Part shown: piece after piece, positions 20 through 24,778 of the stretch
Layout of the letters: the number at the start of each line of letters is the position of its first letter
How positions within the stretch are numbered: position 1 is the stretch's first letter
Virus record (IMG/VR): IMGVR_UViG_3300034779_000003
Location: 1 to 32,567 of that record
Reading direction: 5' to 3' (one strand)
DNA from: a virus
Length of the DNA stretch: 32,567 nucleotides
The notes under the pieces: model-generated
Told to the model about the DNA's origin: nothing
The model's database searches: none
The model's input: the letters and a program-made list of their open reading frames with translations, nothing else
Position numbers and translations under genes: made by a program

Positions 20-37
20 AAAATATTTTGAGTCAGC
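20..37. repeat. degenerate copy of the 20-bp palindrome
   Basis: The left half and centre of the recurrent palindrome are present (ACTCAAAATATTTT read on the minus strand), but the last arm is changed to ATGT. It overlaps the stop codon of the tape measure gene and so lies at the gene's 3' boundary, as several other copies do. Confidence 0.55.
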
Positions 38-3000
38 TCAGGTCCTCATCTCTTTCTTCCATGTCGTACATTTTTGCAGCAAGCTCCTCGAAGAAATCAT
101 CCTTGCTGCTAGCCAGCGCCTTCTCGGCTGCCGCCTGAGCCAGCTCTTGCAACTGCTGTGGGCTCAAGTTACTGCCCATCACCTGCACGGTGATGGAAGG
201 CGCGAAAGTAACGGGACCAAAAGCCATAGAAGCAGGAGGGGGTGCAGAAGCGCGGACATAACTGCCGCCATCCTGTGCGCTGCTGACAGCCAGGTTGCGC
301 AAAGCCTCTACGTCCTGAAGCCAGTCACCCGGGCTCCGGCGCGACAGACTGGCAGGAAATACTTGATTTCTATTTCCGTCTGCATTAAGAGTGCGAGTGT
401 ATGCAACGTATTTCTGTAGCTCATTATTCGGAGTAACGAATCCGTTAGCGTTAGGCGTAAATAGCTCTACACCGCGCTCGCCTCCGATGTAGTCCACACC
501 TTTAAGCACGCGCCCACCTTTAGCGAAGTAGCCGCCGAAAGGTCTAACGTTCGGCGTGTTGCCTGTCTGATTTGAAGGTGTCGGAAAAGCGGGGAATGTT
601 GGCCGTTCTATAACAATGGAATTTACTTTATCAGCGAGATTCTGAGCAGCAGAAGAGACGTTCTTGAATGCAGGCGGAATCTTATTAGCGGGGTCAATGC
701 ACTGGCCGAAAGCGTCTGCGGTCTGCTTGGCAGGCTCGGCTATGTTTAATATGCTTTGTGCGAAACCTCCCATTACAGAATTATCAAGGGACGGTTTAGC
801 TGGTATCTGTACGCTTGCAAATACGCTCTCTATAGCACGTTGTAGATTAGCTTGGCCTTCGGGCGATAAGCCTATCTTCGGAAGCTCAGTCTGTATAAAG
901 CTCTGGCGAACTTCTGGAATAGCAAGTTGAGGCGCGAACCTTTGAAGCATCTCTTTGTCTGTAGCTAAAGGCTGATTGCCATAGAAGGGCCGCGCTAATC
1001 TGCGATAAAGAGTATTTTCAAATTCTGTTGCTGTGAACGTTCCCCTTGCTCTGCTCAGTTCGCCGCCGCGCATAAGAGACTCACGAACAGAGCGAGCAGA
1101 TACGGAATAGTCAACTACGTCGCCTTTCTGCCGTCTCTGATTGATAGTGTTGTAATCAAGAGTTGCGCCCTGTTCTCTTCTTAACTGCTCTCTATACGCT
1201 TGCACGTTTTTGTAACTGGCGAACGCGCCTCCAGCTATCGCCGCAATACTCATAGTCACGGGGTTGGTAGCAAGGCCAGCAGCACCAACCGCGCCCCTGC
1301 CTATCAAGCTTGCTCCGCCCGCAGCTACTTCCGAGTTGATGCCTCCGCCGCCGCTTCCACCGCGTAGCATACCGTTGAAAAGGCCAACTCCGTCTGCGGC
1401 CTCCGCGCTCGCTTTACCTAGAGACAAAAGACCAATCATAGCGGCGGACATGGCCGGATTGTCTGAAGAGGTTGCTTGTAGGCTCTTGATTTGATTTGAT
1501 AGCTGCTCTGCTACGTTTCCGCCTAATGTCATAACGGGTGCGCCAGCCGCAGCCCTTGCATTCGTTTGTGAGGCTGTAAATTCTAAGAATTGTCCGAGCG
1601 GGTTTCCCCTCTCGAACATCTGATTATAAAAGCCCTCAACATTAGGCACGCGCACATAATTCTCAGTCTCTTTCGACAACTGCCTACGCATGAGCATCAT
1701 CTGCGCTACTTCACGCTTTGCCGTGCGGTTGCCGAACATCACTTCTAATTGCTTGGCTACAGCTTCTACGTTCGTAGTGTCAACGCCCTTTCTATCGAAA
1801 GCGGCCATCAACTTGTCTGTGAAGGTAAACGGGTCTCTTCCCATGTCGTTACTTATAGGAATAGCCCCGGGAAGCAGGCGCGAAATCTCGCCACGTCTAT
1901 TGAACTCAACTTTTGAGCGGTCAAGCAATCCCATTTCGCCCCAATACTTGAGCTTGTGAGCAGGGATTTGACCGCCAACAACAGCGCTATAAAGTGAAGT
2001 GAGAGCAGTACCCGCAGCCTTGCCGCCCATCTGCTGAATGAGTGGCATAAACTTCATAAGCCCTTCGGGGGACATCTGCATGCCTACAATCTGACCTTGC
2101 TTGATAAAATTGCGAAACTCAGAAGGATTTACTTCTCCACCTGTTGCCAGATTCGTCTGCGCTATGAGATTCAAAAACTGTTTGGCTGTATTAGTGTCAA
2201 TGTCTTTACCCATTAACTCAACAGCCTTCACCGCGTCAGAAAATGCTTTGATAGACTGCTCTCGCCCTACTCTGTCACCGTTAAGCGCTTCGGTTGCCGC
2301 AACGAATCTTGAAGCTTGAGGCAATAACGCTATAGCCTCATTAACGCTTCCCATAGTGCCTGTAAGGTTCGTGAGTAGTTCTGTCGCGTCTACTTGACGC
2401 ACGCCCCTTATTTGAGATGTGACCTGTTCCACAGCTTGCAACCCTCTGGCCGTCTCAGCTTGTGGATAGTTGAGAAGTTGAAAGCGGGTCTGTGCGCGTT
2501 TGAGTTCAAGGGCAGGGTCAACGAATCCACCCCTTACCATGTCGTAAGTGCGCTCTGCTACATAGCCTACGTTGCGGGCAGTCCGCACGCCCCTGTTAAA
2601 TCTGTCTACGTTGTCGTAGTCGCCGGATGCGCGCCTCCCCCTGCGGCCTGTGCGGCCTGTCGCTCTAGCCGCTTCACGCTCTAAACGTGCGCGCTCTCTT
2701 AGTAGCTTTATGTCTGCTATCTCTGCTGAGCGCTGCGCGCCAGTGGCCCGCGCTTTGGTTTGAGTAAGCCTAGCCTGCTCACGCTCTAAACGAACGCGGT
2801 CTTGCATCAGCTTGACTTGCTCACGCACGGCACGAGTCTCGCGGTTTAATGCTGTAGCAGTCGCCCCGCTCTTTGGCAGACCGCTCTTAGGCACGCTGCT
2901 ATTAGGCTTTAGTTTGTTGAGCGCTCTTTGAAGTGATATTGCCTCTTTATTCGCGCCGCGCAGTTGCTTAGTGAGAGCAGAGATACGCTTCTCCGCTTGG

Positions 3001-3053
3001 CCCTGAACCAAGAATTGAAGGATAAGCTTGTGAGTTTCAGAACCTTTGCCCAT
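33..3053 (-). CDS. tail tape measure protein
   Basis: This protein of about 1006 residues sets tail length and is placed inside the tail tube before ejection. The N-terminal 150 residues are highly charged, coiled-coil-like and rich in Arg/Glu/Gln, with a repeated RLERE(Q/A)AR unit. The middle holds a Gly/Ala-rich hydrophobic stretch near residues 590-650 that could be a membrane segment. The C-terminal part contains a GG..FA.GG..L GV.YIGGERGVELF motif often seen near the end of tape measure proteins. The open frame extends to a TTG at 3074, but the ATG at 3053 (protein MGKGSETHK) is the more ordinary start. The gene would normally follow the tail chaperone directly. Here a 3.4-kb divergent module separates them. 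Family call is firm from length, composition and gene order. Confidence 0.85.
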   Translation of the reverse strand: MGKGSETHKLILQFLVQGQAEKRISALTKQLRGANKEAISLQRALNKLKPNSSVPKSGLPKSGATATALNRETRAVREQVKLMQDRVRLEREQARLTQTKARATGAQRSAEIADIKLLRERARLEREAARATGRTGRRGRRASGDYDNVDRFNRGVRTARNVGYVAERTYDMVRGGFVDPALELKRAQTRFQLLNYPQAETARGLQAVEQVTSQIRGVRQVDATELLTNLTGTMGSVNEAIALLPQASRFVAATEALNGDRVGREQSIKAFSDAVKAVELMGKDIDTNTAKQFLNLIAQTNLATGGEVNPSEFRNFIKQGQIVGMQMSPEGLMKFMPLIQQMGGKAAGTALTSLYSAVVGGQIPAHKLKYWGEMGLLDRSKVEFNRRGEISRLLPGAIPISNDMGRDPFTFTDKLMAAFDRKGVDTTNVEAVAKQLEVMFGNRTAKREVAQMMLMRRQLSKETENYVRVPNVEGFYNQMFERGNPLGQFLEFTASQTNARAAAGAPVMTLGGNVAEQLSNQIKSLQATSSDNPAMSAAMIGLLSLGKASAEAADGVGLFNGMLRGGSGGGGINSEVAAGGASLIGRGAVGAAGLATNPVTMSIAAIAGGAFASYKNVQAYREQLRREQGATLDYNTINQRRQKGDVVDYSVSARSVRESLMRGGELSRARGTFTATEFENTLYRRLARPFYGNQPLATDKEMLQRFAPQLAIPEVRQSFIQTELPKIGLSPEGQANLQRAIESVFASVQIPAKPSLDNSVMGGFAQSILNIAEPAKQTADAFGQCIDPANKIPPAFKNVSSAAQNLADKVNSIVIERPTFPAFPTPSNQTGNTPNVRPFGGYFAKGGRVLKGVDYIGGERGVELFTPNANGFVTPNNELQKYVAYTRTLNADGNRNQVFPASLSRRSPGDWLQDVEALRNLAVSSAQDGGSYVRASAPPPASMAFGPVTFAPSITVQVMGSNLSPQQLQELAQAAAEKALASSKDDFFEELAAKMYDMEERDEDLS

Positions 3054-3068
3054 ACAAAAAGACCCGCG

Positions 3069-3087
3069 ACTCAAAATGATTTTGAGT
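3069..3087. repeat. 20-bp palindrome family, copy with a 1-bp centre
   Basis: ACTCAAAAT-G-ATTTTGAGT: two 9-bp arms around a single central base. It lies 16 bp upstream of the tape measure ATG and downstream of the predicted promoter at 3156-3183, so a bound protein would sit in the path of transcription. Confidence 0.75.
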
Positions 3088-3090
3088 TAA

Positions 3091-3148
3091 AGCGGGCCTC
3101 TGGTTCGGGCCTCTATGATTTATGGCGCTCTACTTCGGCGCTCTATGT
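3091..3148. repeat. 13-bp spaced tandem repeats in the tape measure leader
   Basis: CGGGCCTCT occurs at 3093 and 3106, and GGCGCTCTA at 3124 and 3137. Each pair is spaced by 13 bp and the two pairs resemble one another. The block lies between the predicted promoter and the palindrome. Function is unknown; it could be a protein-binding array or an mRNA leader structure. Confidence 0.5.
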
Positions 3149-3155
3149 AAAGGGG

Positions 3156-3183
3156 ATTATAACAGAGAAGCTAATTTCGTAAA
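3156..3183 (-). promoter_or_regulatory. putative sigma70-type promoter for the tape measure gene
   Basis: On the minus strand a perfect TATAAT (3161-3156) is preceded at 16 bp by TTTACG (3183-3178, 4/6 match to TTGACA). Transcription would start near 3149, about 95 nt before the tape measure ATG. This would let the gene be expressed despite being cut off from the rest of the tail operon. Confidence 0.5.
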
Positions 3184-3194
3184 GAAAAAGTTTC

Positions 3195-3569
3195 TCACTG
3201 AAACGCTACAGCGATGTTCTCAATTCTCCATTTATGGCTTTCCCTGGTTAACGTGATGATGCTTTTACCGCCGCATTTCCATTGAATCACAACCTCTGCG
3301 GATTCATGCACGATAGTTTCGTTTAGTATCTCAAATCCTTTATTCTCACATTCCAGATAAGTCTTGCGCGTAGCAGCCGACAGTATCCTTAAACCTGTTA
3401 CCTCTTGACTCTGAGCAGCGCGTGAAGAGTAGTATTGAAGAGAGCCTTCTATATCCCCCTGCTCTAGCTTACCTGCCCAATTCTTAACAGTATCAGAAGG
3501 AGAAGAGAGCGAGCCGCAGCAGATTAGCAAGATGCATGAGAGGGCTAACAGGGTGGGCGTGCGCGTCAT
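3195..3569 (-). CDS. small secreted protein or lipoprotein, possible lysogenic-conversion (moron) gene
   Basis: The 124-residue product starts with a short positive n-region and a hydrophobic stretch ending in LLICCG (residues 14-19). This is a signal peptide with a non-canonical lipobox; the acceptor Cys would be 17 or 18. The mature part (SDTVKNWAGKLEQGDIEGS... through KWRIENIAVAF) has the length and alternating pattern of small NTF2/DUF4878-like lipoproteins. The gene has its own promoter and no clear Shine-Dalgarno site, and is isolated between the tape measure gene and the repeat arrays. Phage lipoproteins of this size often block superinfection, but that role is inference. No homologue is recognised with certainty. 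Confidence 0.6.
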   Translation of the reverse strand: MTRTPTLLALSCILLICCGSLSSPSDTVKNWAGKLEQGDIEGSLQYYSSRAAQSQEVTGLRILSAATRKTYLECENKGFEILNETIVHESAEVVIQWKCGGKSIITLTRESHKWRIENIAVAFQ

Positions 3570-3576
3570 GCGGCAG

Positions 3577-3604
3577 ATTGTAGCTGAAAATATTTAAGGG
3601 GCAA
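3577..3604 (-). promoter_or_regulatory. putative promoter of the lipoprotein gene, near-leaderless
   Basis: Minus strand: TTGCCC (3604-3599), 16-bp spacer, TACAAT (3582-3577). The ATG is 7 nt beyond the -10 box, so the transcript would begin at or beside the start codon. This fits the absence of a Shine-Dalgarno sequence. Confidence 0.4.
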
Positions 3605-3623
3605 AGCTTACACTCTGCCCCTT
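3596..3623 (-). terminator. hairpin, possible rho-independent terminator
   Basis: AAGGGGCA and TGCCCCTT form an 8-bp stem around a 12-nt loop. On the minus strand it is followed by AAATATTTT. It could end the transcript that runs through the HTH gene and GGNNN arrays before the lipoprotein promoter, whose -35 box overlaps the stem. Confidence 0.45.
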
Positions 3624-3693
3624 CCTTGTCTTGCCATGCCTCGCCTCACCATGCGATGCCCAGCCTGCCCACGCCACGCCTCAAAAACCTTAG
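3624..3693 (-). repeat. GGNNN pentamer array, third copy
   Basis: Read on the minus strand, the leader CTAAGGTTTTTGAGG (3693-3679) is followed by GG doublets spaced by about five bases (GGCGTGGCGTGGGCAGG, then GGTGAGGCGAGGCATGGCAAGG-like units). The leader is a variant of TTAAGTTTTCGAGG found at the two other arrays. Confidence 0.7.
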
Positions 3694-3716
3694 AAATAAT
3701 AGCGCGGGATAATAAC

Positions 3717-3811
3717 CATGCCATGCCTGCCAAGCCCTGCCCAGCCCGTCCGGGCCAAGCCGTACCATCCCTTGCCCCGCCGCACCAAGCCCTACCTCGA
3801 AAACTTAAGAC
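3717..3811 (-). repeat. GGNNN pentamer array, second copy
   Basis: Read on the minus strand it begins with GTCTTAAGTTTTCGAGG (3811-3795), which contains the TAA stop of the HTH gene. It continues as GG doublets with mostly 5-bp periodicity down to GGCATGGCATGG at 3717. The same 17 bp start the array at 6315. Confidence 0.75.
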
Positions 3812-4005
3812 TTCTTTTTACTACCCTTCTTTGTTGAAGGTCTACCCATTTTTGGCGGCGTGAAGTTTTTAAGGTCACTATCAGGAACGACCCAGCCGCC
3901 AACTTGCTTTGCGTTTGGAAAGCGCCCCTGCCTACACCACAGTCTTACCGTGGTTTCGTCTACGTTCAGCCGCGCAGCAACTTCCGATGTAGATAGTAAC
4001 TCCAT
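3805..4005 (-). CDS. excisionase/MerR-type helix-turn-helix regulator
   Basis: The 66-residue protein is a single winged-helix domain: LSTSEVAARLNVDETTVRLW (residues 4-23), then CRQGRFPNAKQVGGWVVPDSDL, a wing ending in the usual W.(I/V)P..DL signature. A basic Lys-rich tail follows. It is the family called helix-turn-helix domain, excisionase-like. It could act as repressor of the divergent plus-strand cluster, as excisionase, or as both. The gene has a near-perfect promoter, and its ATG is only 8 nt after the -10 box with no Shine-Dalgarno site, so its mRNA is probably leaderless. Its stop codon is part of the second GGNNN array. Confidence 0.8.
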   Translation of the reverse strand: MELLSTSEVAARLNVDETTVRLWCRQGRFPNAKQVGGWVVPDSDLKNFTPPKMGRPSTKKGSKKKS

Positions 4006-4013
4006 AGGTCAGC

Positions 4014-4042
4014 ATATTAAGAGCAGAGCAATGTTTTGTCAA
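4014..4042 (-). promoter_or_regulatory. promoter of the HTH gene, predicted leaderless transcript
   Basis: Minus strand TTGACA (4042-4037), exactly 17 bp, TAATAT (4019-4014). Eight nucleotides separate the -10 box from the ATG, so the start site should fall within about two bases of the start codon. Confidence 0.75.
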
Positions 4043-4048
4043 CAAATA

Positions 4049-4100
4049 TTTACCGCCAGCGAGAATATTTCTATTGACAAAGTTTCTCGCTGGCGGTAAA
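4049..4100. promoter_or_regulatory. 17-bp perfect inverted repeat, putative divergent operator
   Basis: TTTACCGCCAGCGAGAA (4049-4065) and its exact reverse complement (4084-4100) are separated by 18 bp. The left arm lies just upstream of the minus promoter's -35 box. The right arm occupies the spacer and -10 box of the plus promoter. A protein bound to the right arm would block the plus cluster; one on the left arm could touch RNA polymerase at the HTH promoter. The likely ligand is the adjacent HTH protein (inference). Confidence 0.75.
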
Positions 4101-4102
4101 CT
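4074..4102 (+). promoter_or_regulatory. promoter of the plus-strand cluster
   Basis: TTGACA (4074-4079), 17-bp spacer, TAAACT (4097-4102, 4/6). Predicted start near 4109, giving a leader of about 20 nt with AAAGGGG before the ATG at 4129. The spacer contains one arm of the inverted repeat. Confidence 0.65.
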
Positions 4103-4128
4103 TATAGACATCGAAAGGGGCGAATCAA

Positions 4129-4338
4129 ATGAGCAAACTTGAGCAGGCCAAACAAAAGCTCGGATTCATAGGCCGCACGCTTGAAAACGGCTATCTGGAC
4201 TTTGACACCATAGACGAGCTACAGCATGCGGTCTGTAGCGTCAAGCGGCTAATCACTGAGCATGAGCAGGATACGTTGCAACTGCCTTTGATAGAGGGCG
4301 CTTCTACATTGGTAGTTTATGAGCCGAGAGAGGCATAA
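4129..4338 (+). CDS. small protein of unknown function, first gene of the plus cluster
   Basis: 69 residues, no recognised domain. The first 45 residues look helical (LEQAKQKLGFIGRTLENGYL, then DELQHAVCSVKRLITEHEQD), followed by a short hydrophobic end. It has a good ribosome site (AAAGGGG, about 9 nt before ATG) and is the first gene after the operator-controlled promoter, the position of cro or an anti-repressor in many phages. No DNA-binding motif is visible, so a regulatory role is only suggested by place. Confidence 0.6.
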   Translation: MSKLEQAKQKLGFIGRTLENGYLDFDTIDELQHAVCSVKRLITEHEQDTLQLPLIEGASTLVVYEPREA

Positions 4339-4343
4339 GAAGC

Positions 4344-4378
4344 GGGCTTAGGAAAGCGCAGCAACGCTCCCTAAGCCC
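4344..4378 (+). other. stable intergenic RNA hairpin
   Basis: GGGCTTAGG (4344-4352) pairs perfectly with CCTAAGCCC (4370-4378), and inner GCG/CGC bases extend the stem. There is no U tract, so it is a poor terminator. It may act as an attenuator or as a processing/stability element that separates expression of the first gene from the rest. Confidence 0.55.
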
Positions 4379-4409
4379 TTCACCATTCACCACTTGAGAG
4401 GGGCAAACG

Positions 4410-4655
4410 ATGAAGGGACAGAATAACACATCCCGCAAGACAAAGACACGCGCAGAGCTTCGGGCAGAACTGGCACACGACCTTGCGTTGGTTCTCAACA
4501 ATCCAGAGCTTCCAAAAGAAGTATATGAGGGAATCACGGACGACCTGAAAGAGTTTTACAGTATGCTTTCGGGGGAAGGCCAGCGCTACATTAACGACTC
4601 AGAGGATTACATCAAACTCGTTTTAGAGGGCGGCTCTAAAGGGGGTGCGCGCTGA
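4410..4655 (+). CDS. small unknown protein, paralogue A
   Basis: 81 residues. It shares with the product of 4963-5202 a basic N-terminus, RAELA..LA.V...PELP.E.Y..I.D, a central YI, and the identical C-terminal KGGAR. The two are therefore duplicates, separated by one gene. The ribosome site GAGAGGGG precedes the ATG. The last codons (AAA GGG GGT GCG CGC TGA) also act as the ribosome site for the next gene, whose ATG overlaps the stop (TGATG). The predicted fold is helical, with a possible small binding domain. Function unknown. Confidence 0.65.
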   Translation: MKGQNNTSRKTKTRAELRAELAHDLALVLNNPELPKEVYEGITDDLKEFYSMLSGEGQRYINDSEDYIKLVLEGGSKGGAR

Positions 4656-4966
4656 TGGCTAAGAGAGGCGAAGCAATAGAATCTGGCGGCTTTACAATGC
4701 AGCCTTTCACCTCCGCTGATATTGACTACATGGTTGAGCTAACGCGACTTGCCGTAAGCTATGAAGACGACGAAGCCACAACCGCCTTCGCACTCTTAAT
4801 CGCTGGCATCGCAGCCACTGACTTTGACCGTGAAACTCTTGCTTGTTTCATCATTGAAACTGCATTAAGCAAGTCAAGAGAAATCCATTACATGATGAGC
4901 GACTACATGAATAAGGAGAGCAAGAGACTGCGAAAAGAGTTAAATAAAGGGGGTTCGCGCTCATGA
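4655..4966 (+). CDS. small unknown protein between the paralogues
   Basis: 103 residues, acidic in the middle and basic at the C-terminus. A helical, moderately hydrophobic centre (TTAFALLIAGIAATDFD) is not convincing as a membrane segment. It is not an obvious copy of its neighbours, but ends in NKGGSRS, encoded by the same kind of G-rich translational-coupling sequence. The start ATG overlaps the previous stop (TGATG), and its own stop overlaps the next start (ATGA). Its translation is therefore coupled on both sides. Function unknown. Confidence 0.6.
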   Translation: MAKRGEAIESGGFTMQPFTSADIDYMVELTRLAVSYEDDEATTAFALLIAGIAATDFDRETLACFIIETALSKSREIHYMMSDYMNKESKRLRKELNKGGSRS

Positions 4967-5202
4967 AAAAGGTTTCCGACACAAAGCGTAAGTCTAGGGT
5001 TCAATCCCGCGCTGAACTGGCGCGGCTGCTCGCCAAAGTAATGGCACACCCTGAACTCCCCTTTGAACTCTACCACGCCATAGGAGATGAAGTTATTACT
5101 TGGATTGATAACAACGCCGCAGAAGACCCGGCTTACATCGAAACAGCACTAAACGCTTATTTTCGGAAAGTGGCGCGGAATAAGAAAGGGGGTGCGCGCT
5201 GA
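4963..5202 (+). CDS. small unknown protein, paralogue B
   Basis: 79 residues, a diverged duplicate of the 4410-4655 product: SRAELARLLAKVMAHPELPF, then ELYHAIGDEV, a central YI and the C-terminal KKGGAR. Two copies of one small protein flanking another and directly preceding an ImmA-type protease suggest partners or substrates of that protease, or subunits of one complex (inference). The start overlaps the upstream stop as ATGA. The 3' end carries the same AAAGGGGGTGCGCGCTGATG coupling sequence as paralogue A. Confidence 0.65.
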   Translation: MKKVSDTKRKSRVQSRAELARLLAKVMAHPELPFELYHAIGDEVITWIDNNAAEDPAYIETALNAYFRKVARNKKGGAR

Positions 5203-5657
5203 TGGCTAAGAAATACAACCCCTTAAACCTTCCTATTCCAGATTGGAACAAGCGGAAAATGACAAGTGTGGACTTTGAAGCTGTCTGCAAACGTGAAGGA
5301 ATTACAGTAGAACGCACACGTATGAAAGGCGACACTCGCGGCCTCTACTTCATACAGGATGGATGCTCGCACATCATCATAGACACACAGTTGAGAGGGA
5401 TTAGAAGGGTACAAGTTGAGTTTCACGAATTAGGCCACTACTTCCTACGACACGAAAGAAACAAGCGGGCATTGAAGCAGATTGACCCTGATACGCATAA
5501 GTACGTAAAAGGCAGTCGCTCTCCCTTACAGGAATGGCTAGAACTTGAAGCGAATATAGTCGCCTGCATAGCAATAGCACCGGGTTTGATGGGCGCTGAC
5601 GAATTACGCCATCTGGCGCTAACCGCTACGAGAATCAACTGGCTAAAGCACAAGTAA
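5202..5657 (+). CDS. ImmA/IrrE-family metallo-endopeptidase
   Basis: 151 residues. The zinc site is plain: FHELGHYFLRH (HExxH, His75-Glu76...His79), with the third ligand in the helix LQEWLELEANIVACIAIAP (around Glu114/Glu116), as in the ImmA/IrrE family (DUF955). Known members cleave phage or ICE repressors or act as regulators in stress responses and toxin systems. The start overlaps the preceding stop (TGATG), so it is made with paralogue B. No XRE repressor, the usual ImmA partner, is next to it. The only candidate substrate with a DNA-binding domain is the divergent 66-aa HTH protein, which is smaller than usual ImmR proteins. Confidence 0.85.
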   Translation: MAKKYNPLNLPIPDWNKRKMTSVDFEAVCKREGITVERTRMKGDTRGLYFIQDGCSHIIIDTQLRGIRRVQVEFHELGHYFLRHERNKRALKQIDPDTHKYVKGSRSPLQEWLELEANIVACIAIAPGLMGADELRHLALTATRINWLKHK

Positions 5658-5658
5658 A

Positions 5659-5676
5659 CCCAAAATATTTTGACTC
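5659..5676. repeat. degenerate copy of the 20-bp palindrome in the plus cluster
   Basis: CCAAAATATTTTGACT keeps the AAAATATTTT centre but has imperfect outer arms. It lies in the only real gap of the plus-strand cluster, between the protease stop and the ribosome site AAGGAG of the next gene. Confidence 0.5.
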
Positions 5677-5694
5677 AAAAAGGAGAATCTAGGC

Positions 5695-6321
5695 ATGGGA
5701 AGTAACATCACAAAAGTAAAGGTCACAATCAAAGGCGTACGGCCTTTGCTATTACATCACTTCGGCCCTGACGCGCTGCCGCTCGAAAAGCGGGAGAAGA
5801 CAGGCGTAGCAGGCAACGACCCCGAAGAGTGGCGCAAGACCGCGCTCGTCAATAAGGATGGTCAAATCTACCTTGACCCTTCTTATGCTTTCGCGTGCAT
5901 TAGAGACGGCGCAAAGTACACGAAGAAAGGCAAAGGCTCAATCCAAGCTGTGGTTGCCGCAACTCTTCAAGTCTTGGATGATTCTGTGTTGATAAACCGC
6001 TATCTCCCCGGCTTCCCTAATGGTCATGCTTGCGACCTTGCCAGCGCGGAAGCTCCGACGCGAGACGCTAGCGCTCCCGTTTATCTGGACGTTCGCAGCG
6101 TCAAGAACCCAAGCACGAAGGGGCGCAACGTACGCTATCGCGTGGCCTGCTCTGCCGGATGGTCAACCAGCTTCACTATCCTTTTTGATAAGACCATAGT
6201 GAGCAGGGCAGAAATGGAAGCCGTATTGAATGATGCAGGCGTGCTTGTAGGCATCGCAGACGGGCGCTCTATCGGATTCGGGCGCTTCACCGTAGAAAGC
6301 TTTGAAGAGTTAGAGTCTTAA
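5695..6321 (+). CDS. RAMP-like protein of unknown function
   Basis: 208 residues. The N-terminus (TKVKVTIKGVRPLLLHHFGP) resembles a family of conserved phage and metagenomic proteins that open with a beta strand and G..PLL.H. The C-terminus, LVGIADGRSIGFGRFTVESF (residues 184-203), is a Gly-rich loop followed by a strand, very like the loop of RAMP/ferredoxin-fold RNA-binding proteins of CRISPR systems. No other Cas protein is present, so a CRISPR role is not claimed. A nucleic-acid-binding protein is the best guess. Ribosome site AAGGAG precedes the ATG. The stop codon is part of the 17-bp leader of the first GGNNN array. Confidence 0.65.
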   Translation: MGSNITKVKVTIKGVRPLLLHHFGPDALPLEKREKTGVAGNDPEEWRKTALVNKDGQIYLDPSYAFACIRDGAKYTKKGKGSIQAVVAATLQVLDDSVLINRYLPGFPNGHACDLASAEAPTRDASAPVYLDVRSVKNPSTKGRNVRYRVACSAGWSTSFTILFDKTIVSRAEMEAVLNDAGVLVGIADGRSIGFGRFTVESFEELES

Positions 6322-6405
6322 GTTTTCGAGGCGCGGCTCGGCTCTGCATGGATTGGCGCGGACTGGCGGGGCGAGGCAAGGCGAGGCATGGTAGGCAAGG
6401 CAAGG
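6315..6405 (+). repeat. GGNNN pentamer array, first copy
   Basis: GTCTTAAGTTTTCGAGG (6315-6331) includes the TAA of the upstream gene. It is followed by about fifteen GG doublets mostly spaced five bases apart, ending GGCAAGGCAAGG just before the HNH gene. The G-rich strand is the coding strand, as for the arrays on the minus strand at 3624-3811. Confidence 0.8.
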
Positions 6406-6412
6406 TTCTTTA

Positions 6413-6709
6413 ATGCCAAAGAAAAGGCAACCTAAAGAAATCTGGCGAGAGACACGACGCAGGATATTGGCGCGAGACGGCTATAGATGTGTCGGGCCAA
6501 CGTGCGGCGGCGTGTCTCTCACAGAACAGACCGCCCACATAGACCACATACGAAGCGGGAAATTAGGGACTAACGCTGACGATAACTTGAGAAGCCTATG
6601 CAGGCGATGTCACGTCCTGCGCGTTGATTTCAGGCATAGAGGAATGATTGCTAATGCTTTGAGAGATGGAATCATTCCTCCGAACTGGCGCGGGTTGGTT
6701 TGGGACTGA
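6413..6709 (+). CDS. HNH endonuclease
   Basis: 98 residues. The motif is complete: RRRILARDGYRCVGPTC, then TAHIDHIRSGKLGTNADDNL, then RSLCRRCHVLR. This gives the metal-binding Cys pairs (CVGPTC and CRRC), catalytic HIDH, the central Asn of DDNLR and the final His of the CRRCH motif. It is the single-domain type found in phages, where it serves DNA packaging beside terminase or works as a homing endonuclease. Here it is far from the terminase and at the edge of the inserted module, which favours a homing or module-specific role (inference). Its last 114 bp overlap antisense with the minus-strand gene at 6596-6835. Confidence 0.85.
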   Translation: MPKKRQPKEIWRETRRRILARDGYRCVGPTCGGVSLTEQTAHIDHIRSGKLGTNADDNLRSLCRRCHVLRVDFRHRGMIANALRDGIIPPNWRGLVWD

Positions 6710-6835
6710 CGATAGTACGAAGGTATTGAATCTTCCGCACTTCTCACATTTAATTTCAATACAACCAACGGTTTTAGGACTCACCTTTGCGGCAAGCCTA
6801 AAACAGTCCTTTTGATTGCATCGAAGTTTTATCAT
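6596..6835 (-). CDS. Com-like zinc-finger protein
   Basis: 79 residues. The N-terminal half, MIKLRCNQKDCFRLAAKV and then IEIKCEKCGRFNTF, is a two-CxxC/CxxxxC zinc finger of the type seen in the Mu Com translational activator and in many small phage proteins. The C-terminal half (from about residue 42) is low in Cys and is encoded antisense to the HNH gene, so the true end of the conserved domain is near 6710. The ATG overlaps the stop of the upstream zinc-finger gene (ATGA). It is the last gene of the tail operon before the inserted module, and its tail may have been created by the insertion. Confidence 0.6.
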   Translation of the reverse strand: MIKLRCNQKDCFRLAAKVSPKTVGCIEIKCEKCGRFNTFVLSSVPNQPAPVRRNDSISQSISNHSSMPEINAQDVTSPA

Positions 6836-6990
6836 TTTCTGTCGCTTTTTCGAGCAGGTGGAGTACGGCTAGGGACTACCTGATAATGATTCAACGATCC
6901 ACAGTGAAAACACTTTTTGTAAATACCCGGCGGAGTCCTATCTGGATACTCCGCTCTCTTTCTGCAATTACTGCAAGCCGTAACAATCAT
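6832..6990 (-). CDS. 52-aa zinc-finger protein
   Basis: MIVTACSNCRKRAEYPDR... followed by YKKCFHCGSLNHY and a basic tail. Cys6, Cys9, Cys27 and Cys30 make a typical CxxC...CxxC zinc ribbon. It overlaps by ATGA with the end of the tail chaperone extension and by ATGA with the Com-like gene, so it is translationally coupled to both. It is probably nucleic-acid-binding. It and the next gene may be diverged duplicates. No specific function is recognised. Confidence 0.6.
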   Translation of the reverse strand: MIVTACSNCRKRAEYPDRTPPGIYKKCFHCGSLNHYQVVPSRTPPARKSDRK

Positions 6991-7178
6991 CTTCTATTGC
7001 GAGTTCTTAATGCTTTCGCTGTTTCCGCAGCATCTTCGTTGATAAAACTTACATAAGTATTACGCCTTATCACAGGCAAGGCCATAACTTCGGCTTCACT
7101 CATGCCTGTTTCCTGCATCAGCCTGTATATAGTTCGCAGGTAAGCTTTCTTCTTCTTCTCCCTCCGCACGAAAGGAAT
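6987..7178 (-). CDS. tail assembly chaperone, shifted-frame extension
   Basis: This frame is open from 7178 to 6987 and overlaps the last 80 bp of the chaperone gene. It encodes KAYLRTIYRLMQETGMSEAE and then VMALPVIRRNTYVSFINEDAAETAKALRTRNRR. Tail chaperones are commonly made in two forms by programmed frameshifting. Here the extension lies in the +1 (equivalent to -2) frame, not the -1 frame. The -1 frame stops after about 14 codons. Mu-like phages are known to use a -2 shift at this gene. The purine run GAGGGAGAAGAAGAAGAAAG at 7164-7145 is the likely slip region. A separate start at GTG 7169 is the alternative. The stop overlaps the next ATG, which supports translation of this frame. Confidence 0.55.
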   Translation of the reverse strand: MPFVRREKKKKAYLRTIYRLMQETGMSEAEVMALPVIRRNTYVSFINEDAAETAKALRTRNRR

Positions 7179-7767
7179 TTAACCAGCCACTCTCCTTTTC
7201 AGCTAAAGCGAACAAGCTTATAGCGTCCAAACCCTCGAACATATCCAGAGGCACAGGCCCTTTCATAGTCGCCGTGCCCTCTGATTGGGAAAGCTCCGAA
7301 ATCTCTTTACCTATAATGAGGTAGTTCTTTCGCAACCCCTCCAGCTCGTCGGCTTCGCCCTCCATATAGGCGTCTATCAGCGTGCCGAACTCGACCACGT
7401 CATACTCAACGCCCCCGCGCGTGAAAGGGAAAGGCAGCTGGATCTTGCTGTCTGAAAGCTGCTTAGGTTTTCGACCGCCTGCTGTTTTCAGTAGGAAGGC
7501 GTTATAGCCGCGAGCCAGCGCCATTCGATCCGGGCGATTAAGTGACATGAGAACAGTCATCGGCACCGGCATCCTTAAATCACCGAAAGAGGTGATGGCG
7601 CCGCCCAGCATCATGAGCTGGCTTTGCGTCTCTTTGTCGAACCCTTCCTCCTCGCTCATTTCGAAAAGGTCACGGCCCGTAAGCCTTCTGCCGAACACAA
7701 CCTTGCTGTGCCTCACCTGGTCAGGTCCGGTGTAACCGAACCTGAGATTAACCTCGACGTTACTCAT
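7096..7767 (-). CDS. tail assembly chaperone (Mu gp41 position)
   Basis: 223 residues, following the tube gene and, before the insertion, preceding the tape measure gene: the usual chaperone slot. The N-terminus begins with beta strands (VEVNLRFGYTGPDQVRHSKV) and a DLFEMSE segment. The later part holds MPMTVLMSLNRPDRMALARGYNAF and FPFTRGGVEYDVVEFGTLIDAY, as in Mu-type tail assembly proteins with tandem substrate-like sequences. The 3' end is Glu-rich (EGEEEES), where the frameshift would occur. The ribosome site GGCGGAAG precedes the ATG. Family assignment rests mainly on position, length and the overlapping second frame. Confidence 0.65.
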   Translation of the reverse strand: MSNVEVNLRFGYTGPDQVRHSKVVFGRRLTGRDLFEMSEEEGFDKETQSQLMMLGGAITSFGDLRMPVPMTVLMSLNRPDRMALARGYNAFLLKTAGGRKPKQLSDSKIQLPFPFTRGGVEYDVVEFGTLIDAYMEGEADELEGLRKNYLIIGKEISELSQSEGTATMKGPVPLDMFEGLDAISLFALAEKESGWLNSFRAEGEEEESLPANYIQADAGNRHE

Positions 7768-8271: not shown

Positions 8272-9792
8272 TTAAGCTTCGAGCTTCACCGTCAGTGGCT
8301 GCTGGTTTAGCGAGACGTTGACGCGCTCGGCCGTGGGCGAGATTCTCACGTCCACCTTGACGTTCAGAACCTGCTGATCGAGGCTCTCCGCCGGGTTGTT
8401 CTGCTGGTCGCAAACAACCAGGAACGCTTCCTCTTCCGTCGCGCCGTAGAGGCCGCCCGCCCTCCAGAGCTGTCGGCAGATGCTTTCACATACTGACTTG
8501 GCCTCTCGGAACAGTTGCCCGCTGCCATCGATGGTCTGGAAGGGGATGTTCTGCAAAGAAGCCTTGAGCTGATAGTAGAGATAATTCAGAGTGCGAATCT
8601 CGTGAATCATCTGCACGCGGGAGTCCGGGCTTATCAGGCGCTCGCCGTATATGCGGATGCCCTGGCCCCGGAACGGCACGATGGCGTTGATCTGATTCTC
8701 ATTGAGGAAGGCGCGCGTGTTGTCGTCCATCTGCGCCAGGCCCGTCGAGTACGTCTCAATGCCGAGCGCACCCGGAATAAGACCCGTCAGCCCCGCCGGT
8801 GCCTTGAACACGCCTATAGAGTCGGCCTTCGCGCACGCGCCTGCGGCAAAGGCGCTCGTCGGGTAAAACTTCCTGACGCCGGAGCCTGCGAAATCCAGCA
8901 TCACGACGCGCGGCCAGTGCAGCCCCCCGAATGTAATGGCGTCGCGTACGTCTTTTACTTCGTCCTTGTCCAGACCTTCGGCGGCGTCATGAAGCGGTAA
9001 CCTCTGATAGGCGAGTCCGTGGGCTTCGAGAGCGGCGTGCGCAGCATCCGTGGTCACGCCGGGGAGCGCCACTTGACCGGGGCCGAACTCTTCCGAGTTG
9101 AGCACCTGCAAGCCGGTAGCTTCAGCAGTGCCGGCGCCTGCACCGATGAAAGACGCGTCAGAAAGCCCTGCGAAGTCGTCAGAGCCTCCGACCAGTAGGG
9201 TTTCAGCTGTTAAATCCGGCAGGTTGGCGGGAGCGGCATTAGCTGAAGCAAGGTTCGTTAGCTTCACGAGCTTCGAAGCGGCGTTGACGATGGCAAGTGA
9301 CGCCGCATCCATCTTCAGGTTGTTGTAAGACTCCATCAGGTCTAGCTTGTTCGACCAGACCGTGAGCCTGACCGTGTTGGCTTCGGTGCCGGCTTCTATC
9401 TTGAAGCGCACTTCCACGCTCGAAGACGGATACTTCGCGTCAATCCGCAGCGTGTCGTCTTCCGCCTCGTCCACGCCCCTGTCTTTAATGGTCTTGGTGG
9501 CCACGGCCGCCGCCGCGCCGACGACGCGCACGACCACGGCGCGGTCGCCGGGAAAGACGTTGAAGAAGATGTACATGGCGTCCCCCAGCGCGGAATTGGC
9601 GTGCAGCCCTCCGAACTGCCGGCGGTAATCTTCGAAGCCGGTGATATTGACGGGCTGGTTGACCGGGCCCCAGGGCGAGTATCCGACGGCGAGGAGCCGC
9701 GAGTTGGTTTCCAGTTGAGAGGGGCGAGCCACCGGCGAATCGTTGACGCCTACGTGAACGCCCGGTGTCGATGAGCCTGTAATGGGTAGCAT
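8272..9792 (-). CDS. contractile tail sheath protein
   Basis: 506 residues. The N-terminus PGVHVGVNDSPVARPSQLET, with LAVGYSPWGPVNQPVNITGF and DAMYIFFNVFPGDRAVVVRV, is the classic start of Mu gpL/P2 FI-type sheath proteins. The C-terminal half has the conserved REAKSVCESICRQLWRAGGL, the conserved ATEEEAFLVVCDQQNN and a final beta-rich domain (DVRISPTAERVNVSL) that links neighbouring subunits. This gene fixes the virion as a myovirus. The start ATG has GAGGACGA upstream. Confidence 0.95.
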   Translation of the reverse strand: MLPITGSSTPGVHVGVNDSPVARPSQLETNSRLLAVGYSPWGPVNQPVNITGFEDYRRQFGGLHANSALGDAMYIFFNVFPGDRAVVVRVVGAAAAVATKTIKDRGVDEAEDDTLRIDAKYPSSSVEVRFKIEAGTEANTVRLTVWSNKLDLMESYNNLKMDAASLAIVNAASKLVKLTNLASANAAPANLPDLTAETLLVGGSDDFAGLSDASFIGAGAGTAEATGLQVLNSEEFGPGQVALPGVTTDAAHAALEAHGLAYQRLPLHDAAEGLDKDEVKDVRDAITFGGLHWPRVVMLDFAGSGVRKFYPTSAFAAGACAKADSIGVFKAPAGLTGLIPGALGIETYSTGLAQMDDNTRAFLNENQINAIVPFRGQGIRIYGERLISPDSRVQMIHEIRTLNYLYYQLKASLQNIPFQTIDGSGQLFREAKSVCESICRQLWRAGGLYGATEEEAFLVVCDQQNNPAESLDQQVLNVKVDVRISPTAERVNVSLNQQPLTVKLEA

Positions 9793-16410: not shown

Positions 16411-16492
16411 TTACCTCAACTTTGTGAATCACTCGGAGAGTAAAACCGAAAAGGAGCAACCCTTCGCTCATGTCCAGCGCGCATTATGGGGT

Positions 16493-16544
16493 TAAGGTGC
16501 AGGGCTTGTGTGTGAACAACCTCGAAAACAACCTCGAAAACAAC
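16493..16544 (-). promoter_or_regulatory. late promoter-like element, copy 2
   Basis: Minus strand: two 12-bp direct repeats GTTGTTTTCGAG, then GTTGTTCACACAC, a 19-bp variable spacer, then CATAATGC (-10-like, 16498-16493). The same repeats, spacer length and -10 occur at 24477-24416. It lies between a strong terminator and the first gene of the head/tail unit. There is no -35 consensus at 17 bp, so an activator binding the direct repeats is likely (inference). Confidence 0.6.
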
Positions 16545-16564
16545 CTTGCGCGCACTACAAAAAA

Positions 16565-16598
16565 GAGTGGGGACTCAAAACATTTTGAGTCCCCACTC
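16565..16598 (-). terminator. rho-independent terminator built on the palindrome
   Basis: A 16-bp perfect stem, GAGTGGGGACTCAAAA and its complement around a 2-base centre. On the minus strand it is followed by TTTTTT, so it ends the terminase/portal transcript. Its core, ACTCAAAACATTTTGAGT, is a copy of the recurrent palindrome, extended by GC pairs. Confidence 0.85.
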
Positions 16599-16622
16599 TC
16601 TCGTTAAGGTAAAAGATATGAT

Positions 16623-23911: not shown

Positions 23912-24298
23912 TTAAGTTGTGGCGTTAGATTTCCCCGAGTCAGGGAAGATGACCTTGAAGACGAGGGTGGCGATGCCGAAGACGGCCCATCCGACGGTGT
24001 ACAGCTTCGACAGGTTGAACTGCCTGCCCTCCACCATCGCGTGGAGGTCCGCGTCGCCCGTCAACCAGAGAGCCACCAGTGAGACGATTGCGCTTATCAC
24101 GAGGGCCACGAAGAGCGCGGGCCTGCCGTGCAAACGGCCATTCTCGTCCGTGAGATTCCAGCTCTTCGGGAGCAGTCCCCGATTGACGAACCAGGCGATG
24201 CCGGTTGAGACGGCGCCGGCAATGCTTAATGCCATGGCCTGACCTGAAGTAAGCGCGGCGGCAATGAAAAGTGTTGCGATTAAGACAGCTGTTAGCAT
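23912..24298 (-). CDS. multi-pass membrane protein, holin-like
   Basis: 128 residues with about four hydrophobic segments: residues 2-18 (LTAVLIATLFIAAALTS), 22-40, 62-80 (ALFVALVISAIVSLVALWL) and 100-118 (LYTVGWAVFGIATLVFKVIF). It is the first gene after the late promoter-like element and is followed by a lipoprotein and a spanin-like protein, so a holin is the most likely role. Strong ribosome site GAGGGG. Confidence 0.6.
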   Translation of the reverse strand: MLTAVLIATLFIAAALTSGQAMALSIAGAVSTGIAWFVNRGLLPKSWNLTDENGRLHGRPALFVALVISAIVSLVALWLTGDADLHAMVEGRQFNLSKLYTVGWAVFGIATLVFKVIFPDSGKSNATT

Positions 24299-24329
24299 TT
24301 ACGCACCCCTCACATTTGGTTAATTGGTA

Positions 24330-24367
24330 CCCTTGCGGGCAAAGCCGGAAAGGCCCGCCCGCAAGGG
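24330..24367 (-). other. leader hairpin of the lysis/late unit
   Basis: CCCTTGCGGGC (24330-24340) and GCCCGCAAGGG (24357-24367) form an 11-bp perfect stem. The loop contains a small GCC/GGC stem. It lies between the promoter-like element and the holin-like gene, so it would be near the 5' end of the mRNA, without a U tract. Probably a stability element. Confidence 0.5.
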
Positions 24368-24415
24368 CTCGCGCGGCTGGTCAGCCCCTAAGATGGCAGC
24401 CGCGGGTAGGGTTGC

Positions 24416-24477
24416 ATTATGTGGGCAGGGGTGGCTGGGCGTGTGTGAACAACCTCGAAAACAACCTCGAAAACAAC
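24416..24477 (-). promoter_or_regulatory. late promoter-like element, copy 1
   Basis: Minus strand: 37 bp identical to the copy at 16544-16508 (two GTTGTTTTCGAG direct repeats, then GTTGTTCACACAC), a 19-bp unrelated spacer, then CATAATGC (-10-like, 24421-24416). It lies between the last early gene and the holin-like gene. Confidence 0.6.
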
Positions 24478-24490
24478 TCTACGCCGGTGG

Positions 24491-24778
24491 CTAGGCAGTC
24501 ACCTTGGAGTAATAGTTTCGGTCGAAGTAGCCTTTAAGGTTCCGATGGTCCGCGCAGAGGGAGACCTCTCCCTCCTTAAGCTTCTTACCGCATTCGAGGC
24601 ACCGGCCCAGCTTTTTACGGCGGGCGCGCTTTGCTTTATTGCGAACCTTCTGTTTATTGCTATGCTCTTGGGCGCAGGCCTGGCAGCGTGTGCCGGTCCC
24701 TTTGGGGCCGCGCTCTTCTCCACAGTCGAAACATTTTCCTTCCTTAACCCATGTCGATCTAATTTTAAGACCGGGCAT
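24491..24778 (-). CDS. basic zinc-finger protein
   Basis: 95 residues with two zinc sites: CFDCGEERGPKGTGTRCQAC (residues 16-35) and CLECGKKLKEGEVSLCADH (residues 60-78), joined by a very basic KAKRARRKK stretch. Likely DNA- or RNA-binding. It ends the early operon just before the late promoter-like element, the usual site of a late-gene regulator, but no family proves this. Confidence 0.65.
   Translation of the reverse strand: MPGLKIRSTWVKEGKCFDCGEERGPKGTGTRCQACAQEHSNKQKVRNKAKRARRKKLGRCLECGKKLKEGEVSLCADHRNLKGYFDRNYYSKVTA

Follow-up and report, generated by a model that had tools for sequence, protein, structure and literature searches.

A nuclease-bearing VIPR module inserted in a phage tail operon, with guides that may direct its homing into related phages

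What is the block of genes that separates the tail chaperone gene from the tape measure gene in the virus record IMGVR_UViG_3300034779_000003, and why does it lie among virion genes? A preliminary description of this 32.6-kb stretch (positions 1–32,567 of the record; hereafter 'the window') had listed in the block a helix–turn–helix (HTH) protein, two open reading frames (ORFs) ending in KGGAR, an ImmA-type protease, a RAMP-like protein and an HNH nuclease, and had offered three readings: a lysogeny switch, an immunity or defence cassette, and a mobile insert. Our ORF and profile searches agree with the gene order and strands that it gave between chaperone and tape measure, and all of the listed genes are present. 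The RAMP-like gene is a vipr gene, as found in Viral Interference Programmable Repeat (VIPR) systems, which a recent preprint (PMC13142463, April/June 2026) presents in its main text as repression-based weapons of inter-phage warfare, assigning nuclease-bearing types to host defence.

A VIPR core in the module

The vipr gene (5695–6321, plus strand) encodes a RAMP/Cas7-like protein of 208 residues that matches phrog_4652 (E = 4.2e-16) and no Pfam family. Its predicted fold (mean pLDDT 65) retrieves Csm3/Cas7 as the best Foldseek matches (E = 1.3e-5, TM 0.37–0.50), and comparison of the model with Csm3/Cas7 by VIA gives Z-scores of up to 10.1 over 148 residues. The protein is 28% identical to ALH47069.1 of phage phiSUSP1 (E = 3e-6; hhalign probability 97.9, E = 3e-13), which we equate with the vipr product of the preprint because its gene belongs to a pair with tracts before and after it; on SUSP1, our tract finder recovers one tract upstream and two downstream of vipr, that is, three of the four reported guide RNAs (vrRNAs). 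A glycine loop with G194, G196, R197 and F198 is invariant in 10/10 aligned rows. Downstream lies an HNH nuclease-like gene (6413–6709, plus strand; 98 residues; Pfam HNH, E = 8.2e-7), a vap-type accessory in which the catalytic residues D44, H45, N58 and H67, together with C26, C31, C63 and C66, are likewise invariant in 10/10 rows. Fold searches with this protein returned weak matches only (best E = 5e-3), including the HNH domain of Cas9, type I HNH variants and TasH.

Degenerate pentamers of the form GGY+NN, overlooked in the preliminary description, fill two stretches of the module and make up three vrRNA guides. The stretches at 6327–6405 (plus strand, score 58.6) and 3619–3799 (minus strand, score 73.5) stand far above 100 dinucleotide shuffles of the window, whose highest score was 26.5, and these shuffle scores reject a reading of the tracts as low-complexity noise. 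Taken along the strand of the genes beside them, both stretches have the form GGYNN; one fills the gap between the RAMP-like and HNH genes and the other the gap between the HTH and lipoprotein-like genes. vrRNA-A, between vipr and HNH (6327–6405, plus strand), has 12 regular units, a 4-nucleotide (nt) unit and then GGCAAGGCAAGG; vrRNA-B1 (3716–3799, minus strand) has 13 regular units, a 4-nt unit and two more units; and vrRNA-B2 (3619–3680, minus strand) has 10–12 units. The B array ends in a terminator-like hairpin of 12 pairs with a T-rich tail (3596–3623, minus strand), and a similar hairpin follows the tract at 9410–9488 of virus record G001. As a control, only one of 78 virus loci fetched by target patterns (L136, a relative of virus record G002) had a tract score of at least 40.

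A repeat search of 3100–7200 found the GGYNN tracts and the KGGAR gene ends as the sole families with at least three copies and no CRISPR array, and other cas families are absent from the module proteins. Rfam matched nothing in the window and, at gathering score, nothing in ten related loci; two weak matches at a lower threshold were taken as chance.

Relatives of Vipr are encoded on 9 virus contigs and at 15 bacterial-genome loci (Acidobacteria, Chloroflexi, Bacillaceae and relatives, Desulfosporosinus and Verrucomicrobia). The HNH gene follows vipr directly in 24/24 of them, although the match at L045 is a fragment of 20 residues. GGYNN tracts adjoin the pair in 9/9 virus contigs (at L012 the near tract reaches 36.9, with a stronger one 4 kb off) and reach a score of at least 40 at 13/15 bacterial loci, with L032 reaching 35.4 and L045 having none. 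The vipr–HNH pair recurs in otherwise dissimilar phages and in some bacterial genomes. By the ordered-set comparison over these 24 loci, RAMP, HNH and tracts alone form the conserved unit, and the larger set of HTH, KGGAR, ImmA, RAMP and HNH genes, which had been put forward as one unit, does not hold together.

The core of the module is almost certainly a VIPR RNA-guided system, because it combines a Cas7-like predicted fold, homology to SUSP1 Vipr, GGYNN tracts and a Vipr–HNH pair that is kept in 24/24 relatives. The earlier suggestion of an immunity or defence cassette is borne out, and the suggestion of an undescribed system gives way, the VIPR core being already described in the main text of the preprint. 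The module shares with the systems presented there a RAMP-homologous Vipr, guides of GGY/NN tandem repeats next to vipr, an accessory gene adjoining it, a phage location and a target code that skips one base, the skipped base falling at the codon wobble position. Its tracts of 12, 13 and 10–12 units fit the roughly 9–16 YNNGG repeats beside vipr that the preprint describes, and its Vipr agrees with the small RAMP protein, built on an RRM core with a glycine loop, that is expected of VIPR systems.

The module also differs from the preprint's account. The accessory here is an HNH protein with no homology to SUSP1 vap1; the module lies amid virion genes in the window and in several virus records, with guides that resemble homologues of nearby genes of the carrier; and the element of G002 interrupts its own target. 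The preprint reports vrRNAs with an invariant structured 3′ tail, whereas the 3′ flanks of 21 tract blocks here have no obvious common sequence: many outer tracts end in unrelated hairpins, several of them strong, and inner tracts run into the start of HNH. An HNH-bearing VIPR inside virion operons, with guides resembling the neighbours' homologues, is not mentioned in the main text of PMC13142463, in which the terms 'homing', 'HNH', 'insert' and 'self' do not occur.

Several side observations concern the tracts. vrRNA-A and vrRNA-B1 share a 5′ leader, TCTTAAGTTTTCGAGG, at 6316–6331 (plus strand) and 3795–3810 (minus strand), and in each case the leader runs across the stop codon of the preceding gene, as if leader and tract had been duplicated together. 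The control locus L136 (1085–1289, in IMGVR_UViG_3300031997_000207) holds a lone GGYNN tract between head–tail connector-like ORFs on a 10.1-kb contig that has a relative of the G002 portal gene and no vipr match. The 110 nt before this tract resemble a stretch upstream of G002 vipr, and both leaders could form an H-type pseudoknot whose stems, compared by eye, differ by compensatory changes; the L136 tract may be an orphan vrRNA preceded by a structured leader. A 259-nt array at L025 (5952–6210) consists of near-invariant GGCAA/GGCAT units with scant NN diversity, unlike a guide, and seven contigs (L014, L015, L016, L017, L019, L020 and L023) all carry the same short 8-unit tract and, in the sequence examined, no window-type Vipr or HNH relative. 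GGYNN arrays also adjoin distant Vipr-like genes (28–32% identity) at L022 (11203–11545), L018 (5565–6297) and L021 (4268–4366), with no match to the window HNH in the sequence examined; the five tracts of L022 are parted by a repeated spacer resembling GGATTTGAAACATCAC.

Insertion into the tail operon

Profiles name the terminase, portal, major head protein, tail sheath and tail tube of a minus-strand, contractile-tail virion operon in the window. Family libraries gave no clear name for the chaperone (7096–7767, minus strand) or for the tape measure protein (33–3053, minus strand), which marks the far flank of the inserted block; both are identified by position and by relatives with the same gene order. 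Chaperone homologues were found in 3/162 genomes, the search covering the class of the genome that carries vipr locus L034, a Pyrinomonadaceae metagenome-assembled genome of the class Blastocatellia. With the chaperone as query, no relative was found in IMG/VR or among named phages. Members of the Blastocatellia class are likely hosts of the window phage, and one of the three chaperone-bearing genomes, G011, has an HNH-VIPR of its own on another contig (L034).

We examined 18–19 kb around each of the three chaperone homologues. The genes m2, sheath, tube and chaperone stand in the window's order in 3/3 relatives, joined by m3 and m1 in L149 and L151, and the next long ORF past the chaperone, of 838–978 residues in the three, is the presumed tape measure gene, with no intervening module. 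This ORF matches the window's tape measure by tblastn in L149 only (E = 3e-9), and the reading of the L151 chaperone is broken by a gap and a stop. No GGYNN tract occurs in the 18–19 kb around the chaperone in any of the three. On these comparisons the block between chaperone and tape measure is an insertion, because 3/3 relatives of the tail operon are without the module. The proposal of a mobile insert accordingly stands; it had been coupled to the caveat that relatives all sharing the same genes here would speak against insertion, and in 3/3 the chaperone is instead followed by the presumed tape measure.

The vipr–HNH–tract part of the Desulfosporosinus lacus locus L044 recurs in three other genomes of the genus (G371, G381 and G384) at 77–82% identity, with a second, partial copy nearby in G371; matches to the L044 query cover this part alone, as if it were mobile. 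When empty sites were sought for the Bacillus and Desulfosporosinus loci, VIPR blocks turned up in scattered places, and no clean empty site was among the results.

A one-base-skip code in guides of the clade

We assembled 27 guides of at least 8 regular units from ten virus records (the window and G001–G009) and compared each with its own contig at the DNA level, with tracts masked, 0–3 bases skipped between dinucleotides and 200 permutations of unit order. With one base skipped, the match of 6/27 guides was reached by at most 1/200 permutations; with 0, 2 or 3 bases skipped, this was so for 0/27 each. At the 0.05 level the counts for skips of 0, 1, 2 and 3 were 0, 6, 1 and 2 guides, and against the other nine contigs 2/243 guide–contig pairs passed the strict level. 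Four of the six DNA-level matches lie in frame with the skipped base at the wobble position (G002 portal, G002 capsid, G003 tape measure and G009 tail tube). These 27 guides on whole virus contigs supersede an early scan of 51 guides against pieces of their own loci. Its skip-3 matches (L018, L008 and L024) and a skip-1 match in L028 were set aside, and an L005 guide that had seemed promising was equalled by 17/200 permutations at the DNA level on the whole contig.

Guides were also read as codon prefixes against the ORFs of at least 70 residues in their own contigs. At p ≤ 0.01, matches were found for 8/27 guides in sense and 2/27 in antisense, against 2/243 foreign pairs in sense. These ten matches comprise the portal and capsid of G002, the tape measure of G003 and an ORF beside its HNH gene, an ORF of G005 that overlaps a tail-chaperone ORF and another similar to the G003 tape measure, the tail tube and a neck-like gene of G009, a G001 ORF without a family, and the window chaperone. 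The targets that profiles name are portal, capsid, tape measure, tail tube, neck-like and chaperone-linked genes. All ten, sense and antisense, lie within 3.1 kb of the VIPR block (Fisher p = 3e-6 if independent), a count in which tracts up to 3.5 kb away belong to the block and to which the G002 contig is too short to contribute information.

The one-base-skip code is supported for the clade because skip-1 matches were found for 6/27 guides and matches at other skips for 0/27, and because of the portal target described below. Environmental phages here give the code independent support from natural targets, and the guides of the clade are probably aimed at virion genes of kin. Such matches suggest that the targets of a phage VIPR could be predicted simply by inspecting the neighbouring genes.

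The same matches bear on whether the module is a VIPR of the defence-island type, carried as cargo to guard a lysogen against unrelated phages. In the preprint's main text, types III and V, which bear nucleases, are given a role in host immunity, and relatives of the module do reside in Bacillus, Chloroflexi and Acidobacteria genomes, where their guides have no homology to neighbouring genes. The guides of virus records instead match homologues of the carrier's own virion genes, which makes this host-protecting role quite improbable for the module.

An element within its own guide target

One guide of G002 (tract 1739–1837) has its match in portal genes. Eight of its 19 units, or 16 bases, served as a search pattern in IMG/VR and retrieved 17 loci, 10 of which are homologues of the G002 portal gene. 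Among the 22 bases outside the search pattern, 17 match in L143 and 15 each in L139 and L134, where 5.5 are expected by chance (binomial 4e-7 and 2e-5). Over the whole guide, 31–33 of 38 bases match in L134, L139 and L143 (33/38 in L143), compared with 25/38 in G002's own portal gene. Units 2–15 match L143 at 28/28 bases, 16 of them belonging to the search pattern, in frame at the 3′ end of the portal gene; the portal proteins of G002 and L143 are 93.5% identical over 401 residues.

Alignment of the two DNAs places the element inside this target. Similarity on the left flank stops at G002 1679 and L143 4507, and on the right it begins at G002 3310 and L143 4502, which delimits an insert of 1630 bp in G002 (1680–3309) that contains two tract blocks, HNH and vipr and begins 31–36 nt into the 57-nt target. 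To its right, the next gene keeps its ribosome-binding stretch and its start. Vipr was absent from the sequence examined at all 17 loci (the whole L143 contig; L139 and L134 in part). By these alignments the G002 element lies in its target gene and is absent from that place in L143, L139 and L134, which bear the target, as would be expected of a homing element. The G002 allele, both diverged and interrupted, would be spared. In the window, 3/3 relatives are free of the module, but kin that bear the target were not found. A similar scan of the collection with a G005 guide gave 46 loci, the best matching 9/18 flanking bases, and was unconvincing.

These alleles also weigh on the thought that vrRNAs repress the carrier's own late genes, with mismatches tolerated, and so keep virion genes off early in infection. 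The matches of guides to genes of the carrier itself do exceed chance. The own matches are nevertheless imperfect (25/38 and 25/42 bases in G002, 23/30 in G003), set against 28/28 over 14 units in a relative's allele, and a nuclease partner would damage the genome that carries it. Self-regulation of this sort is very improbable.

Guides of the window

vrRNA-A decodes to A-S-S-[IM]-[FL]-A-L-G-[DE]-[KN]-[DE]-[IM]. Its best match within the window, to residues 182–193 of the adjacent tail chaperone (AISLFALAEKES; 7189–7224, minus strand; the presumed diverged homologue of its target), has p = 0.0095 over all ORFs with 2000 permutations and 0.008 with 5000, p = 0.002 when only the two flanking genes are considered (5000 permutations), and had p = 0.003 in a first run of 300 permutations. 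The chaperone is a suggestive candidate for the homologue of the vrRNA-A target, and we lean towards the view that the window's guides, too, are aimed at virion genes of kin.

Searches of collections with these guides yielded chance matches at best. Units 4–12 of vrRNA-A hit two IMG/VR contigs in the same stretch, where 0/6 upstream bases match, and units 5–12 hit 15 loci, the best with 4/8 flanking bases; both results were ascribed to chance. Nine units of vrRNA-B1 found 0 loci in IMG/VR, vrRNA-A with at most 3 mismatches found none in the 162 genomes of the L034-genome class, and the window's guides matched no ORF at p < 0.1 in the fragments of the three tail-operon relatives.

Possible RNA-guided homing or interference

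How might such an element come to sit beside, or within, what its guides resemble? In the mechanism that we propose, Vipr would bind a vrRNA, and the complex would bind double-stranded DNA, with the NN dinucleotides pairing as NNxNNx and the skipped base being mostly a wobble base, as the preprint describes (PMC13142463). The guides would aim at virion genes of close relatives that are homologous to genes near the module, the carrier's own copy having diverged. The HNH protein would then cut the relative's DNA at the guide target; the cut would exclude the relative's allele, and repair from the carrier would copy the module into the relative. Overall, the process would resemble the intronless homing of phage homing endonucleases, with the difference of being RNA-guided. 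Taken together, an inserted VIPR, guides aimed at kin, a cut by HNH and copying form the explanation that we favour, with reservations. On the stronger proposal that HNH-armed VIPRs of phages are RNA-guided homing elements as a class, belief and doubt are evenly balanced: a 1.6-kb cassette of Vipr, HNH and guides would spread through HNH cleavage, inserting in or near virion genes, and its guides would recognize the intact allele of element-free kin.

A number of results weigh against this explanation. The type II systems tested in the preprint repress (PMC13142463). Among the six DNA-level matches, that of G003.1 is ambiguous and the G006 one does not share the frame of the tape measure ORF; 19/27 guides have no sense match at the protein level at p ≤ 0.01 (17 when antisense is counted); and none of 13 guides from bacterial-genome loci reaches p ≤ 0.05 in 26 tests covering 3–10 kb around each. 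The sole empty site at a guide target is that of G002, outside the window, and of the other two G002 guides one matches the relatives' capsid genes no better than its own (25/42) and one has no match. In the window, the match of vrRNA-A to the chaperone is at the protein level only, with p of about 0.01 before correction for six tests (three guides, two orientations), and amounts to 16/24 bases by hand count at the DNA level, which is not significant. The B1 and B2 guides have no match in their own contig, and an exact natural target of vrRNA-A or B1 was not found in the scanned collections.

The same data could reflect a VIPR weapon without homing, which would silence or cut late genes of superinfecting relatives or satellites; HNH would only strengthen interference, and the place of the module near homologous genes would follow from recombination with kin that share the operon. 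The main text of the preprint reports that 18/20 targets of the SUSP1 clade lie in a satellite sharing structural genes, with interference by repression. In our set, all named targets are virion or packaging genes, and targets lie up to 3 kb away from the insertion point. In G002, on the other hand, the element has its insertion point within the 57 nt that its own guide targets, and the nearness of 10/10 matches exceeds what shared operons alone require. We regard a weapon without homing as rather unlikely.

Homing by way of HNH cleavage would resemble that of the free-standing homing endonucleases of T4, which, in the account of PMC2988022, cleave at sites hundreds to thousands of bases away from where they are inserted and exclude T2 markers. 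As with the T4 seg and mob genes, a nuclease gene here stands between phage genes, with its target in or near the relatives' neighbouring gene, and the range of their cut-to-insertion distances (PMC2988022) resembles that of the target distances seen here. Unlike in those genes, specificity would reside in RNA and a RAMP protein and not in a DNA-binding domain of the nuclease, and each element has several guides.

Other RNA-guided systems are more distant. Class 1 CRISPR systems have an RNA-binding subunit of Cas7/Csm3-like fold, and type I systems with an HNH-bearing Cascade are among the weak HNH fold matches; in contrast, the module has a single small RAMP and a pentamer guide code, and it lacks a CRISPR array and, among its proteins, any further cas family. 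Tas proteins have a Nop-type domain, whereas the module has no Nop-type family match and a RAMP fold instead. The likeness to TIGR-Tas (PMC12045711) lies in phage-borne RNA-guided DNA targeting with tandem guides, and TasH is among the weak HNH fold matches. Titles and abstract openings in the literature on RNA-guided homing and noncontiguous guide RNAs, covered in part, held no homing of this kind; the priority of the idea is not certain.

Here, phages carry a nuclease-bearing type of VIPR in the midst of their own virion genes. That insertion point and guide target coincide in one phage would bring together the fields of RNA-guided targeting and homing endonucleases. If homing is correct, it would explain how the cassette spreads and could be tested with a two-gene element, and the choice of target would be written in replaceable RNA and not in the nuclease.

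Regulatory and cargo genes around vipr

An HTH_17/excisionase-like regulator (3805–4005, minus strand; Pfam HTH_17, E = 1.6e-11) diverges from the vipr operon. Between the two transcripts lies an inverted repeat, reported earlier and real, with arms at 4049–4070 and 4079–4100 that are 91% complementary and would serve as an operator. The two near-consensus promoters of the preliminary description are both there, TTGACA-17-TAAACT (4074–4102, plus strand) and TTGACA-17-TAATAT (4042–4014, minus strand), each matching 10/12 consensus positions; promoter-like sites are no more frequent in the region than chance predicts (6 against 3.9 ± 2.0), so that their placement alone is suggestive. The HTH protein and the inverted repeat probably set the expression of both transcripts.

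Upstream of vipr on the plus strand, the operon holds four ORFs without a family (4129–4338, 4410–4655, 4655–4966 and 4963–5202), namely a small ORF and then two KGGAR-ended ORFs flanking a third small one, followed by an ImmA/Peptidase_M78-like gene (5202–5657; E = 3.7e-5). None of the 24 vipr loci contains a match to the KGGAR, ImmA or small ORFs. The HTH protein recurs near Vipr in L034 (47% over 66 residues), as a 35-residue stretch in L007, and as a weak 49-residue match 5 kb off in L011. We therefore read the genes outside RAMP, HNH and tracts as cargo or local regulation, because the KGGAR, ImmA and small ORFs are unmatched in these loci and the HTH gene recurs in few. Downstream of the B array is a lipoprotein-like ORF (3195–3569, minus strand) with a sub-threshold DUF4878 match only.

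An HTH_17 protein, an inverted repeat amid divergent promoter-like sites and an M78 protease could also suggest that the plus-strand operon is mainly a lysogeny or immunity switch, built on an HTH repressor and ImmA protease with Vipr as cargo. The poor recurrence of these parts beside vipr speaks against it, and no integrase or CI/Cro-type repressor scored above cut-off among the module proteins, to which that search was confined. The switch is unlikely, and the HTH, inverted repeat and ImmA part looks like regulation of the cassette. PADLOC noted partial likenesses of the HTH protein to mad1, of HNH to ZorE and of the ImmA-like protein to capP; MADS, Zorya and CBASS readings were set aside, there being no partner genes among the module proteins.

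Further features of the window

Two Com-like zinc-ribbon ORFs (6596–6835 and 6832–6990, minus strand, as the tail genes) lie within the extra DNA and have no match at the same place in the three relatives. Conservation of Com1 alongside HNH was considered and rejected; its tblastn matches run antisense to HNH. Related AT-rich words, AAAATATTTTGAGTCA, GACTCAAAATGATTTTGAGTT and AAAATATTTTGACTCAAAA, occur at 20–35, 3068–3088 and 5662–5680. The first two lie at either edge of the tape measure gene (its end and its start, respectively), the third directly precedes vipr, and together they may represent a shared regulatory or exchange motif. Two distant ORFs of the window (16470–16607 and 24271–24537) have the peptide VNNLENNLENN in common, which points to a repeated DNA motif.

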